A stretch of DNA of 64,000 nt from Aerococcus sp. GTDB lineage: Bacteria; Bacillota; Bacilli; Lactobacillales; Aerococcaceae. Below, in pieces: positions 27,301 to 62,016 of the stretch. How positions within the stretch are numbered: position 1 is the stretch's first letter; every line of letters starts with the position of its first letter. The DNA lies in the NCBI GenBank assembly GCA_030528155.1, contig JAUMZL010000003.1:21772-85771 (forward strand), in the 5' to 3' direction. The translations under genes were made by a program, and so were the position numbers. The notes below the pieces were generated by a model that saw only the letters and a program-made list of their open reading frames with translations, had not been told where the DNA came from and ran no database searches.

Positions 27301-28056
27301 CGCATTTCCATCGGGATCATTAGGCAAAATGAGCGATGCTACCACTTCACAATCCGACTGAAGTAACGCTTCAACTACCCGATACTCATAAGCATTGAGG
27401 CGCTCAAACCCATCTAAAATCACCAATGTATTCGTAAAATCTTCCTGTTTGATGTAGTGGATCAAGCGATCATAAACCGTGAAATCACGCAAAGGATGGG
27501 CCGTAAGATAATCCTCATATTCTCGATAGATATTGGCAAGTTCCTGCATTTTCTTCCACTCATTGACAACATGACCAACCTCACTAGATTTGGGACGTTC
27601 CTGATCGATTAAGGCTTGAAAGTCATCAGCATGGATATTCCCACGCTCTAATTCATTGAAGAGTTGGACCAAACGTTCCTGAAAACTCAAATAGCGACTT
27701 TCCCGTCCAAACAGTGCCAATTCCTGTTGATGCTCATGCGTCAACTTGCGCAAAAGCATGGCTAATCCAATTTCAGATACCGTATCCTTCGTCACATTCA
27801 ACCCTAAAAACCACGCCAAACGCTTAATGCTAAACACCTGCAGTCGCATCATCGCATTGGCCTCATAGCCTTCGTGGCCCTCGTAGCGATTTAACTGTTT
27901 CAATACCTCAAACTCACTCGCTAACTGACGGTCTTCAGGCACCAAGTAGAAAACGCGCCGCTCAAAACCACCACCAGCTAAAAAGGACTGAATACGTGCG
28001 ATCAATGGCCCCCGATCGCGCTGAATATCGGTCATTAAATGTAATTGTAATGGCAA
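24352..28056 (-). CDS. addB: ATP-dependent nuclease subunit B (RexB type)
   Basis: Partner of AddA, 1234 residues, carrying the second nuclease (VIDYKSS in the C-terminal third). The N-terminus reads MTDIQRDRGPLIARIQ where Bacillus AddB has a Walker A loop, and I see no C-terminal cysteine cluster for an iron-sulfur site. This is the RexB form of lactic bacteria. The start is TTG, with AAGGAGG eight bases before it; the nearby ATG is in another frame and too close to that site. It follows a small coiled-coil gene after 33 bases. Confidence 0.93.
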   Translation of the reverse strand: MPLQLHLMTDIQRDRGPLIARIQSFLAGGGFERRVFYLVPEDRQLASEFEVLKQLNRYEGHEGYEANAMMRLQVFSIKRLAWFLGLNVTKDTVSEIGLAMLLRKLTHEHQQELALFGRESRYLSFQERLVQLFNELERGNIHADDFQALIDQERPKSSEVGHVVNEWKKMQELANIYREYEDYLTAHPLRDFTVYDRLIHYIKQEDFTNTLVILDGFERLNAYEYRVVEALLQSDCEVVASLILPNDPDGNAIEMGDTFYQTKRLREQLTLLNGGRYQLVPETTFATAPAYQRGFSAIEEWLIADQSLPLSQEANQTVAEAVTLWKSESPQVEADQVANQIYHLVSNPNQSYRYCDFHIFIRDFERYQSLLLPALQQNHIPYFVDYPQTMAKHPLARFMASLIRMDQRNWRYQDVFNVLRTGLLALNWETDNEALSYQETLDYLENIVLAHGYEGRQFWNDAVTWNTRLDARGAKQKTNAADRQMATYVHLLKNRTYQACQQLFSMWHQAENGEAAVRALYQFMEQQAVPKQIQQWASELNAAGELEEAEHQLQVWQKFVEVLDEYVRLFGQDPFDQREFAMILKSTFEQTTYRIVPPTIDSVTITSYETHPVTPTKVAFIIGLTDQTLPKQKQQTSLLTDDDRLLLNRGMSAEQFLDPSPAEQFNHEKMIAYHLFLAATDHLYVSYPYNIMGEKQTRPSSYFTHLKTQFHLPATIKAEEGDWEETEAVMERPEIVLGNWRSQLHHLVIKERQAKEKNRLLDQAWSELEEKLRHFSVSEAKPLIPAVLSSLTYQNRVHALSPALAKKLYGKTLVASVSNLELYNKDPFSYFLQYGLRLKERALFAIDQRLTGSYSHEFLQRYYDRLATHPNETTEERLHHIEQSLAKVPAYAVFQRQTQESLQQEALNRTVRQLILREAEHFEAVKLENWYNELTFGRGELELALPINDVNLTGIIDRVDAVWMQDEQTKEETLYFEVIDYKSSLRNRASELKNLGNLYDGTSLQLYTYLAVIWQAFQSGELWRKQPHTAKAHYQTLPIGIFYEELSSLATDPHLVISNEKDWQKLCSFEREKRPEMVNLGRLNGYLLESKQALTAVSQTVEAEALSSDQVYPFQLTKQGAFSNAVGYKNRFTAEQFSTVVDFVLKKIATTVQAIQSGQIPLYPVKDDPYLPSLTTFKSVARYDATDSDLPRWQPTRFDASQPIADFFEQLAQDRADETTNKEDKEASDESTDA

Positions 28057-53570: not shown

Positions 53571-53666
53571 TTAAGCGGATGCAACAGATTACCGCAAGAC
53601 ACTCGGTCTTTTCGTCTGAGGACAACATCCCATCCCTCAGCACTTAACGCAATCTGCTTACTCTTA
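53571..53666 (-). promoter_or_regulatory. Tetrahydrofolate (THF) riboswitch, folT type
   Basis: On the minus strand the conserved blocks are GAGTA, GCGTTAAGTG, GGGATGTTGTC, GCGGT and TTGCATCCGCT in the right order; the closing helix is TAAG (53663-53666) with CTTA. The switch is readable: CCGCTTAAC can pair either in the aptamer or with GTTAAGTGG just downstream. The latter overlaps GGAACTC, which pairs perfectly with GAGTTCC over the folT Shine-Dalgarno. Ligand binding should therefore hide the ribosome site and turn folT off. Confidence 0.93.
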
Positions 53667-53684
53667 TCTTGCAACAACACCCTC

Positions 53685-57779: not shown

Positions 57780-59783
57780 CTATTTCTTTTTGTGATGCTG
57801 GCGTTTCTTTTTGTGATGCGGTGATTTAACGACAGCGCGTGCGCTGGTCGTTGGGAGTGATTTTAATTTAACGGTCGTATCGACATCTTTCGGTTCTAGG
57901 ATAAATGCACTTTCACCCGGTAGCGTCACGACAATGCTGTAAGGTTGTTTTTGATGTGGCGTAGCTTCGGTATGGAAAACCTCCACTTGCGTCTGCCATT
58001 TGCCACCGAATTCCTGCATTTCACTATTTAACAGGACACAATATGTTCCTGGATAAGGAACACCCACCCGGTAATTCTGGCGTTCCACCGGTGTAAAATT
58101 AAACAGGCACACTGCTTTATCTGTTTTTCCCTTGCCATTACGGATGTATGCGATAATGGTTTGATCGGCATCATCAGCCTCTAGGAACGTGATTCCTTCC
58201 TGATGATTATCTTCATAGTAAAAAGCTGATTTTTCTTGATAGAGATGATTAATGGTTTCAATATAATGTTGGTATTCGCTGTTGTAGTCGCGTGCTAAGC
58301 TATCCCACTCCAATCCTTCGTAGTAGCGCCATTCCAGATAAACACCAATTTCATTTCCCATGAAGGTGAGTTTTTTGCCTGGATAGGTCATTTTGTATCC
58401 ACTCATGGCACGTAAATTCGCAAATTGTGCATAACGTGAATCTCCCGGCATGCGTCCGAGCAATGAATGTTTGCCGTGTACCACCTCATCGTGTGAGAAT
58501 GGCAAGACATAGCGTTCGCTAAACATATACATAAAGGTGAAGGTAATGCGTCGATAGTTGTAGGAGCGGTAAATCGGATCGAGGGAGAAGAAATCTAAGG
58601 TGTCATTCATCCACCCCATGTTCCATTTATAATCGAACCCTAATCCCCCATTTTCTACAGGTTGGGTGACCCCTTCCCAAGCCGAACTTTCTTCGGCAAT
58701 CATTAATAGCGATTTATCGTGTTTTTTCACTTCTTGGTTGAGGCGCCGTAAGAAATCAATGCCCTCTAGATTGGCATTATTGCCATAACGGTTCGGCGTC
58801 CATGGTCCCTCATCGTAATCGAGGTAAAGCATGTTGGAAACGGCATCGATGCGCATGCCATCAAAATGGAAATATTTCAACCAATATAAGGCATTAGAAA
58901 TGAGAAAACTCTGTACTTGTGGCTTGCCGAGATCAAAATTAATCGTCCCCCAGCGGATATTGCGCGCGCGATTCGGATCCATATATTCATAGGTTGGCGT
59001 GCCATCATAAAGCGCCAGTGAATCTGCGTTCACGACGAAATGGCTCGGTACCCAATCGACCAATACGCCAATTCCTTCCTGATGTGCTCGTTCAACAAAG
59101 CGCATCAGTGGCTCAAAATCATGATTGTATCGTCCAGCAATGGAGAAATACCCACTGGTCTGATAACCCCAGGAAGCATCGAGGGGATGATCCATCAGCG
59201 GCATAAATTCAATGTGGGTGTAGCCCATTTTTTTGACGTACGGAATCAGTTCGTCCGCCAATTCATCAAAAGAATAGGCACTCCCATCCTCATGAGTGCG
59301 CCAGGAGGACTGATGCACTTCATAAATCGATAACGGCGCATGCTCGTAGCGCTCCAATGCTTGGCGCTGTTTTACCCAATCGCCATCTTGCCATTGATAA
59401 TCATAGGGAAAATCCTGGATGACAGAAGCTGTCAATGGCGGCACTTCATAGGCAAACGCAAAAGGATCTTGTTTCCATTGCACCTGGCCCGATTGATCCT
59501 CAATGGTAAATTTATAGAGATCCCACTGCTTGGCTTGGGGAATAAATGCGCTCCATGCCCCTGTTTCACCAACAGCTATCATCGCTTGGGGCTGCCAATG
59601 ATTGAAATCACCAGCGACACCGACAGATTTCGCATGAGGCGCCCACACGGTAAAACGATACCCCGCTTCGCCATTCAGTGTGGCAGGTTTTGCCCCCATG
59701 AATTTTTCCGCTTCGAAATTCGTGCTATGATTGAAAAAATACATATTGTGCTCAATATTTTCATATGTGAGTGTATCCCCCAT
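57780..59783 (-). CDS. glgB: 1,4-alpha-glucan branching enzyme
   Basis: Introduces alpha-1,6 branches into glycogen. 667 residues: N-terminal CBM48, GH13 barrel with DWVPSHF, GMRIDAVSNMLY (nucleophile Asp), MIAEESSAW (acid/base Glu) and LPFSHDEVVHGK, then a C-terminal beta domain. An unusual Lys/His tail, SPHHKKKRQHHKKK, is encoded by an imperfect repeat of about 21 bases at the 3' end. The ATG at 59783 has GGAGGGG seven bases before it. First gene of glgBCDA. Confidence 0.96.
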   Translation of the reverse strand: MGDTLTYENIEHNMYFFNHSTNFEAEKFMGAKPATLNGEAGYRFTVWAPHAKSVGVAGDFNHWQPQAMIAVGETGAWSAFIPQAKQWDLYKFTIEDQSGQVQWKQDPFAFAYEVPPLTASVIQDFPYDYQWQDGDWVKQRQALERYEHAPLSIYEVHQSSWRTHEDGSAYSFDELADELIPYVKKMGYTHIEFMPLMDHPLDASWGYQTSGYFSIAGRYNHDFEPLMRFVERAHQEGIGVLVDWVPSHFVVNADSLALYDGTPTYEYMDPNRARNIRWGTINFDLGKPQVQSFLISNALYWLKYFHFDGMRIDAVSNMLYLDYDEGPWTPNRYGNNANLEGIDFLRRLNQEVKKHDKSLLMIAEESSAWEGVTQPVENGGLGFDYKWNMGWMNDTLDFFSLDPIYRSYNYRRITFTFMYMFSERYVLPFSHDEVVHGKHSLLGRMPGDSRYAQFANLRAMSGYKMTYPGKKLTFMGNEIGVYLEWRYYEGLEWDSLARDYNSEYQHYIETINHLYQEKSAFYYEDNHQEGITFLEADDADQTIIAYIRNGKGKTDKAVCLFNFTPVERQNYRVGVPYPGTYCVLLNSEMQEFGGKWQTQVEVFHTEATPHQKQPYSIVVTLPGESAFILEPKDVDTTVKLKSLPTTSARAVVKSPHHKKKRQHHKKK

Positions 59784-59827
59784 TTGAGCCCCTCCCATTC
59801 ACCTCATCGCGTAACATTCAACAACTA

Positions 59828-60014: not shown

Positions 60015-60191
60015 AAAAAAAGCGAGGCGTCTCTGCCTCGCTTTCCCAGACAAGGATCGCTACTGTTCACATCAATAGCGATCAAGCGCTTCAGGGTCGC
60101 CCCGCTACTTCCTGTAGTCACATCTTGTGTGTCGCGCTCTCTGTGACCTCACATAGACTTACTGTTATGCTATGCTATGTCGCCTCATCGC
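60015..60191 (-). ncRNA. Candidate structured RNA of about 177 nt, upstream of glgB
   Basis: Starts about seven bases after a good promoter and ends at a strong terminator (60019-60028 with 60035-60044, T7). Stems in order: 60175-60180/60151-60156, 60142-60147/60117-60122, a short CTAC/GTAG stem, a GGG-GCGA-CCC GNRA-loop hairpin at 60094-60103, and a perfect eight-base stem 60076-60083/60055-60062. There is no open frame with a ribosome site. I do not recognise a known class (not T-box, SRP, tmRNA or RNase P). It may be a free RNA or a regulated leader of the glg operon. Confidence 0.6.
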
Positions 60192-60197
60192 AAAGCT

Positions 60198-60227
60198 ATT
60201 ATAACACTATTTGTAAGTGACTTTCAA
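60198..60227 (-). promoter_or_regulatory. Promoter of the candidate RNA
   Basis: Minus strand: perfect -10 TATAAT at 60198-60203, spacer 18, -35 TTGAAA (5 of 6) at 60222-60227. Confidence 0.75.
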
Positions 60228-60348
60228 CGGCCAATTCAATAACATTCTGCCTTTTTCGCACTATTCTATTTTTAACCCATCACCTACCCGTTTACTTGAT
60301 CAAAGGTTTGAAGTGATTCTCCCCCTGACCCTCGCTTAAATAAACGAA

Positions 60349-60387
60349 AGAGCTTCCGGGCCGTCTCATGGACGAGCCGGAAGCTCT
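60349..60387. terminator. Strong inverted repeat, possible terminator
   Basis: A perfect 11-base stem AGAGCTTCCGG (60349-60359 with 60377-60387) with an inner CGTC/GACG stem. The T tracts are modest on both sides, so it may be a terminator or an mRNA end structure for the region between the RNA gene and the Cof gene. Confidence 0.55.
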
Positions 60388-60444
60388 ATCTTTTGTGAAA
60401 TAACCAATTTTTCCCACGATAGTCCTAATATATACGCCGCGTCA

Positions 60445-61826: not shown

Positions 61827-61877
61827 TCTAACTGCTACTACTTTTAGTAAAATCTCTTATTCCAAATGAAACGAGAG

Positions 61878-62008
61878 ATAGCGCCAGGCTGATTCAACTG
61901 GAATCAGTGACGAGGACTGAATGTATCGAAAAATTCGGCGGGTCATTCAGGGGCAGTACAGTCCACAGGGATGTTAATAAACAGCACCAGCTGGTAAAAC
62001 CATCCCAC
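61878..62008 (+). ncRNA. glmS ribozyme-riboswitch
   Basis: Self-cleaving RNA activated by glucosamine-6-phosphate. The cleavage site is expected between A61880 and G61881, directly before GCGCCAGG. Other core blocks are in order: stem CTGATTC/GAATCAG, TGACGAGGA, stem CTGAATG/CATTCAG around TATCGAA and TTCGGCGG, and GGGATG/CATCCC near the 3' end. Cleavage exposes the glmS mRNA to decay, lowering synthesis when the product is abundant. Confidence 0.95.
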
Positions 62009-62016
62009 GTACGTAG

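Follow-up and report, generated by a model that had tools for sequence, protein, structure and literature searches.

A structured small RNA of Aerococcus as a probable branch of a Lactobacillales-wide RNA superfamily including asd/MarS, Ref68/Lacto-3, and COG3610-DE

The window analyzed here, a stretch of 64,000 nucleotides of Aerococcus sp. DNA, contains a small RNA gene whose product is likely to be an independently transcribed, trans-acting sRNA representing the Aerococcus branch of an RNA superfamily and most likely pairing with mRNAs at least via the loop of hairpin P5. This superfamily probably extends across the order Lactobacillales and also includes asd/MarS, Ref68/Lacto-3, and COG3610-DE, so that, with the Aerococcus RNA, four seemingly separate RNAs would be a single RNA that many lactic acid bacteria carry in one copy per genome. 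The assignment of the window RNA to a new branch of one superfamily relies on three observations: the models match at coinciding places, the families are mutually exclusive, and the base pairs covary. What the analysis shows directly are the promoter-like sequence and the terminator, the homology and covariation, the number and distribution of copies, and the identity of the loop.

The sRNA Gene and Its Transcription Signals

The gene is delimited by the following elements:

60227-60198, minus strand: sigma-A type promoter, with -35 box TTGAAA (60227-60222), extended TG, -10 box TATAAT (60203-60198), and a spacing of 18
60193-60015, minus strand: sRNA gene of ~178 nt, with a predicted start at about 60193-60191
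60044-60015, minus strand: intrinsic terminator, a 10-bp stem (60044-60035 with 60028-60019) followed by U7

The first-pass annotation of this DNA had described a structured RNA of ~177 nt with its own promoter and a ten-base terminator followed by T7, and both elements were borne out. The folding energy computed for the 178 nt from 60191 to 60014 is -66.8 kcal/mol, far below that of shuffles (-48.5 +/- 3.6 kcal/mol; z -5.1; 0/200). The terminator, with its 10-bp stem and seven U residues, forms 11 pairs in the computed fold (z -5.8), and a U tract is found near the 3' end of 47/50 homologues; a simple terminator scan of the window did not list this terminator. The sRNA promoter is credible because it is conserved among homologues and not on account of the number of such sites in the region, where six promoter-like sites were observed against 5.2 +/- 2.4 expected by chance, i.e., no excess. 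A -10 box, taken as the best hexamer in a short stretch, lies upstream of 48 of the 50 aligned homologues (0.41 in shuffled stretches), while the extended TG is found in 37/50 and a -35 box with at least four of six matches in just 23/50. At the level of sequence, the Aerococcus RNA is confirmed as a real, structured small regulatory RNA with its own predicted promoter and terminator. We infer transcription in this species, where the locus would be transcribed independently as a free, trans-acting sRNA.

Secondary Structure, Conserved Elements, and Covariation

The RNA is predicted to fold into helix P1, followed by helix P2 enclosing hairpins P3 and P4, then hairpin P5, and finally the terminator:

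60193-60180, minus strand: 5' signature UUGCGAUGAGGCGA, with the family consensus AUGCGAYGAG-YGA
60175-60169 with 60158-60151, minus strand: helix P1, with covariation
60143-60140 (CAGA) with 60050-60047 (UCUG), minus strand: possible outer helix P0, in which 1/4 pairs covaries among 10 sequences
60139-60134 with 60089-60084, minus strand: helix P2, enclosing P3 and P4, with 6/6 pairs covarying in a sequence-only alignment of 33
60131-60119, minus strand: hairpin P3, which many streptococcal members lack, by eye
60117-60105, minus strand: hairpin P4, with the conserved purine loop AGGAA
60104-60092, minus strand: GNRA-like hairpin, within an insertion of the window and locus L002 only (2/10 aligned Aerococcus sequences)
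60083-60055, minus strand: hairpin P5, with the loop UGUGAAC (60071-60065), the proposed mRNA-pairing seed

Covarying pairs in relatives, which had been suggested as a check, were found in three alignments of increasing size. In A1, a MAFFT alignment of 10 Aerococcus sequences with 47 pairs, 95.3% of cells are paired and 23/47 pairs changed on both sides; the covariation score is 0.377 against 0.201 in shuffled alignments and at most 0.103 when the structure is slid, and the count of pair types does not exceed that of shuffles (155/500 reach the same count). A6 covers 33 members drawn from many genera and was aligned by sequence only; in it, RNAalifold recovered P2 alone, with all six pairs covarying. 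When P4 and P5, written by hand from one row, were added to this structure, 21/21 pairs had changed on both sides, with a score of 0.585 against 0.224 shuffled and at most 0.127 slid. Finally, A3, a model-fitted alignment of 50 homologues that leans towards its own model, has double changes in 45/47 pairs and a score of 0.727 against 0.190 shuffled.

The most constant parts of the RNA are unpaired. The 5' GCGA-GA---GA and the P5-loop UGUGAA are present in 33/33 rows of A6, where the GGA of the P4 loop is also nearly constant; this constancy is partly selection because a pattern scan demanding the 5' motif, GGA, and TGTGAAC supplied 13 rows, the other 20 rows not being so chosen. A6 was obtained from A4 (39 rows) by removing six rows by length, three of which (L231, L236, and L246) have UGUGGA. 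Over the 50 homologues of A3, GCGAYGA is found at the 5' start of 49, and the P5 loop reads UGUGAA in 45 and UGUGGA in 5.

The perfect eight-base stem pointed out in the first-pass annotation (60083-60076 with 60062-60055) holds and belongs to the conserved helix P5. The GNRA hairpin of that annotation is also present, at 60104-60092, although it sits in an insertion common to just one of the nine other aligned Aerococcus sequences, L002, whose version is without GCGA. As for the outer helix P0, none of 50 sequences across genera was significant when tested by single-sequence shuffles, and it is incompatible with the closing pairs GAC/GUC that RNAalifold gave in its first fold; both are poorly supported.

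Relationship to Known RNA Families

At Rfam gathering thresholds, the window RNA matches no family, 6S RNA included, and by the threshold rule it falls outside RF01732, RF02840, and RF03066 as now defined. Both the full covariance-model comparison and 6S RNA, as a family that could overturn the description, had been named beforehand, and the statement that no known class could be matched was fair at these thresholds; profile searches nevertheless tie the RNA to asd/MarS, Ref68, and COG3610-DE. 6S RNA resembles the window RNA in being free, structured, and of similar size, but it has the shape of a long bubble hairpin, whereas the window fold is branched.

Under relaxed limits, the window RNA scores 16.1 bits with Ref68 (E 0.56; threshold 44), aligned from the first Ref68 base, and is not listed for asd/MarS RF01732 (threshold 84 bits), with no asd match in its own genome at E <= 0.001, or for COG3610-DE RF03066 (threshold 73.5 bits). 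Six other Aerococcus copies score 27.3-36.5 bits with Ref68, Aerococcus copies reach up to 43.7 bits with COG3610-DE, both below threshold, and relatives in other genera reach up to 58.3 bits with asd, now named MarS sRNA.

Two covariance models were used. R1 was built from 10 Aerococcus sequences only, and R2 from 33 training rows, among them an asd row from a streptococcus, a Floricoccus row, and two rows of COG3610-DE; in the window they match 60193-60009 (E 4.5e-39) and 60193-60049 (E 2.9e-23), respectively, E-values that are not independent, as the window sequence is part of both training sets. Loci found by R1 include two above the Ref68 threshold (L058, 65 bits; L085, 88.9 bits), one above that of COG3610-DE (L084, 94.2 bits), and a Floricoccus locus above that of asd (L110, 87.8 bits). 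Conversely, among loci brought in by the Rfam models, R1 matched at the right place in 18/30 Ref68 loci (E up to 0.02) and 6/30 asd loci (E up to 0.12). Because R1 misses 24/30 asd loci, the streptococcal link depends on intermediates and R2.

The three Rfam models and R2 were run by the same request on 246 genomes of the order, giving 32 genomes above threshold for asd, 56 for Ref68, and 9 for COG3610-DE, and none of these 97 genomes carries two of the three families above threshold. Among the matches listed, R2 matched at the same place as asd in 31/31 genomes, Ref68 in 41/41, and COG3610-DE in 9/9, a comparison made with 150 R2 rows and a model trained partly on Rfam-named loci. Below threshold the models coincide too, except in genome G076, where Ref68 lies at 2094-2167 of contig C34 and R2 at 1854-1965; this may be a rearranged or doubled copy. 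Coincidence of R1 or R2 with threshold members and one copy per genome, taken here as the marks of the proposed superfamily, were both found.

The features that each family has in common with the window RNA follow the same lines. In asd/MarS (streptococci, Lactococcus lactis, whose control genome lies over the asd cut-off, and Floricoccus), the 5' signature AUGCGAUGAG-CGA starts directly after a sigma-A type promoter as in the window, P1, P2, P4 (inside P2), P5, and the terminator come in the same order in alignments that lean to the models, the P5 loop is UGUGAAC, there is one copy per genome, and the same models find both. The window RNA differs in having P3 and the extra hairpin, other neighbor genes, and a sub-threshold score. 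Ref68/Lacto-3 RF02840 has the 5' signature, P2/P4, and the position of P5 in common with the window RNA, but its P1 region is longer and some members have the loop UGUGGA; the loci above its threshold in this analysis are of Ligilactobacillus, Pediococcus, Apilactobacillus, Tetragenococcus, and Trichococcus type, while its Rfam name points to Enterococcus. COG3610-DE RF03066, present in the sample in a single genus (g29), which belongs to the same family as Ligilactobacillus, has the same helix order, two hairpins inside P2, and a GAUGUGAA loop, while its P1 takes in part of the 5' signature.

It is highly improbable that the window RNA is unrelated to these Rfam families and that the common 5' motif and loops are due to chance or convergence. 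Its scores lie under every gathering threshold and some training rows were selected by the motifs themselves, as such a reading would have it; yet the places coincide in every comparable genome among the matches listed, the families exclude one another, the helix order is common, the sequence-only alignment covaries, and the Aerococcus-only R1 reaches threshold members of all three families. No Rfam clan is listed for asd, Ref68, or COG3610-DE, and no statement of a link between them was found in the literature searched, although a published one may exist. That literature also yielded nothing on Ref68 in Enterococcus, the Lacto-3 motif, or COG3610-DE, and nothing relevant on Aerococcus sRNAs. 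Lacto-3 and COG3610-DE probably stem from Weinberg et al. 2017.

Distribution

Homologues were found in all 15 Aerococcus genomes by DNA search and R1 (in G009 by DNA search and by R1 on its locus). A DNA search of 76 genomes of the family gave matches in 14, of which 10, all of the same genus as the window, correspond to the RNA; the remaining four (G043, G055, G057, and G062) are pieces of 22-35 bases at other places. R1 matched 61 of 395 genomes of the order at E <= 0.01, some matches being weak or short, and R2 matched 162 of 246 Lactobacillales genomes in 50 of 64 genera, with two matches in just three genomes. In a class-wide search of 398 genomes, 33 of 36 matches fell inside the order; the three outside it are short (52-100 bases; E about 4e-4) and were taken as chance. 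A pattern scan of named genomes returned 92 stretches, of which 80 were given to R1 (L185-L196 being left out) and 66 matched at E <= 0.05.

No plasmid copies were found. A single pattern match in a phage (L064), where R1 has no match, was taken as chance. The same holds for the other place in the window that R2 matched, 27754-27857 (15 bits; E 0.003), which lies inside an ORF of 1234 aa.

Three loci titled Sedimentibacter sp. SX930 (L124), Carnobacterium maltaromaticum 757_CMAL (L162), and Streptococcus sp. 263_SSPC (L163) carry RNA copies of Trichococcus or Granulicatella type, and their titles may be wrong. In another family (f8), three loci (L087, L088, and L078) encode shorter RNAs with the promoter, AUGCGAUGAGGCGACA, and a UGUGGAA element in common; by eye, these RNAs appear to be without most of P2-P5 and could represent a trimmed branch.

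Genomic Neighborhood and the Glycogen Operon

Downstream of the RNA, the window contains the following elements:

60004-59992, minus strand: site TGTAAGCGCTTTA, which we take to be cre-like, just past the terminator and outside the RNA, conserved in L098
59857-59829, minus strand: predicted separate glgB promoter, TAGATA-17-TATAAT, conserved in L098 and not part of the RNA
57780-59798, minus strand: glgB, branching enzyme, the next downstream gene

The first-pass annotation had offered two readings, a free small RNA and a regulated leader controlling read-through into glgBCDA. The former is supported by the predicted promoter and terminator, covariation, a single copy in almost all genomes that carry the RNA, and changing neighbors. 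The latter, in which an alternative fold of a cis-acting leader or attenuator would control terminator read-through into the glycogen operon, is improbable, and it was rejected as the main role in view of varying or convergent neighbors, the predicted glgB promoter, and antiterminator pairing not above chance. Linkage to glg genes is not constant. In 13 Aerococcus loci, drawn from the 15 genomes, the first ORF downstream is glgB-like in five and the second in three, which favors a leader, but neither is in the other five, the identities of downstream genes being judged by eye except in the window. Among 16 further loci (15 of other genera and one Aerococcus), 15 have a downstream ORF, of varied kinds by eye, and this ORF lies on the opposite strand in four, two of them Bombilactobacillus. 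Moreover, the promoter-like site before glgB is kept in both the window and L098.

The complementarity between the 5' end and the terminator arm (GAGGCG/CGCCTC), on which the leader reading drew, is present in the window with six Watson-Crick pairs (0.04 of shuffles), but in the other nine of the 10 homologues it reaches three or four Watson-Crick pairs, which is the shuffle level. With G-U pairs allowed, 8/10 homologues reach seven or eight pairs, as do 0.14-0.64 of shuffles.

In four loci (L099, L100, L102, and L103), no more than a few tens of bases separate the terminator from the start of the gene that follows, so that a promoter would hardly fit between them and read-through into this gene may be possible. 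In L099, L102, and L103 the abutting gene is glgB, which speaks for a leader; the four loci also favor a dual element, i.e., a free sRNA everywhere that in some Aerococcus is also a source of read-through into the abutting gene. This second arrangement is quite unlikely, as the gene next to the terminator is not always the same (by eye, glgB or one resembling an esterase) and a same-strand upstream gene could provide the transcript. By eye, palindromes similar to the cre-like site also follow the terminator in L093, L102, and L104, and these sites suggest CcpA control of the downstream gene.

MarS and Other Streptococcal Members

The best-described members of the proposed superfamily are streptococcal. 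MarS is reported to be a stable, independent transcript; in gel shifts it binds the 5' UTR of mga, and changing 88-CC-89 abolishes this binding (PMC5613026). SSRC21, whose ends were mapped by Tesorero et al. (PMC3675131), overlaps the earlier SR914400 by their listing, and its deletion altered 142 transcripts, among them those of M protein and of the operon for the V-type ATPase. In the same account, computation gave no significant interaction with mga, in conflict with the MarS paper (PMC5613026).

When part of an SSRC21 primer was compared with 140 streptococcal genomes, two matches were obtained. One locus, L276, carries both published SSRC21 deletion primers, and its flanking genes, with PLD and ATP-cone domains, fit the cardiolipin synthetase and anaerobic ribonucleotide reductase listed in PMC3675131. 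L276 is the marS locus of a streptococcus, almost certainly S. pyogenes, and from this primer and neighbor matching SSRC21 would be the same RNA as MarS. The locus scores 113.8 bits with asd and 27.6 bits with Ref68 at the same place, and R2 matches it with E 8.4e-12.

Counted from the A of AUGCGA, a numbering whose base 1 may differ from that of PMC5613026, L276 has CC at 88-89 in its P5 loop, UGUGAACC; its 175 bases contain five further CC steps. The loop CC is also at 88 in six of 30 other asd loci, lengths differing in the rest. By this count, the bases of MarS reported as needed for mga binding map to the UGUGAAC loop of P5, and the P5 loop of the window RNA would be the counterpart of the loop in which the published two-base change abolished binding. 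The window loop ends in UGUGAACA: UGUGAAC is kept with respect to MarS, with the last C of UGUGAACC replaced by A.

Pneumococcal srf-17 is annotated as an asd RNA motif (PMC6212727) and corresponds to TIGR4 F38, with fitness 0 in the nasopharynx and a reading frame of six codons by ribosome profiling (PMC9426450), while Srn046 of group B streptococci has the asd motif and declines in late stationary phase (PMC4448216).

Function and Significance

Trans-acting mRNA pairing via the P5 loop is most likely the function, being the best supported, by analogy with MarS-mga, for which it is demonstrated in vitro (PMC5613026). In Aerococcus, we infer the pairing mechanism, in which UGUGAAC, exposed in the P5 loop, would pair with target mRNAs, as well as the targets themselves and any partner protein. 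The window genome, 95.5% complete, has no Mga domain (PF05043) at E <= 0.01, which speaks against activation of mga there. The complement of the P5 loop occurs at six sites in this genome, against one for the reversed control and about six expected at equal base use. One of these sites is the antisense of the RNA itself; of the remaining five, one is in sense orientation near the start of a gene resembling an ABC transporter by eye; none of the six is a convincing target.

A serious rival is that the main partner is a protein: the nearly constant unpaired 5' end, together with the loops of P4 and P5, which are rich in purines, would bind it, as in 6S RNA, with mRNA pairing as a secondary activity. 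This reading is rather unlikely. Three unpaired elements are indeed nearly constant while the helices drift, and enterococci have neither Hfq nor ProQ, whereas sRNAs of E. faecalis are bound by KhpB (PMC10117718). On the other hand, the direct in vitro binding of mga RNA by MarS is lost when two bases of the P5 loop are changed (PMC5613026), and the RNA is not named by any pull-down in the literature searched. Pairing through the P5 loop supplies a concrete seed hypothesis because MarS needs for target binding the very loop that hardly varies across the order.

More broadly, it is possible, and proposed here with a confidence just short of even, that MarS is not primarily a virulence RNA but the form taken in streptococci by a core RNA that Lactobacillales carry in single copy. 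Its nearly constant 5' end and loops would serve one ancestral, order-wide function (a conserved target or a protein partner), onto which lineage-specific targets such as mga were grafted later. To our knowledge, these bacteria are mostly without Hfq. If this proposal is true, this core RNA is now split over three Rfam families and several uncurated branches such as that of Aerococcus. The link to the known families makes an orphan structure a testable member of a regulatory RNA family. The most useful outcome would be that three curated RNA families could be merged into one clan. Furthermore, an RNA known from work on virulence regulation in S. pyogenes has a relative, usually in single copy, in 162 of the 246 sampled Lactobacillales genomes. 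The Lactobacillales with a relative of the RNA include genera known from food, and because relatives occur in these genera, the ancestral function can be studied outside pathogens.

Other Structured Elements in the Window

Between the gene of a HAD-family protein and the sRNA promoter, a very stable hairpin of 11 + 5 pairs is found at 60340-60387 on the minus strand (z -5.1 for 60330-60410), which is probably the terminator of the HAD-family gene. The window also contains a glmS ribozyme (61869-62016, before glmS) and a THF riboswitch (53571-53667), both over the Rfam threshold.
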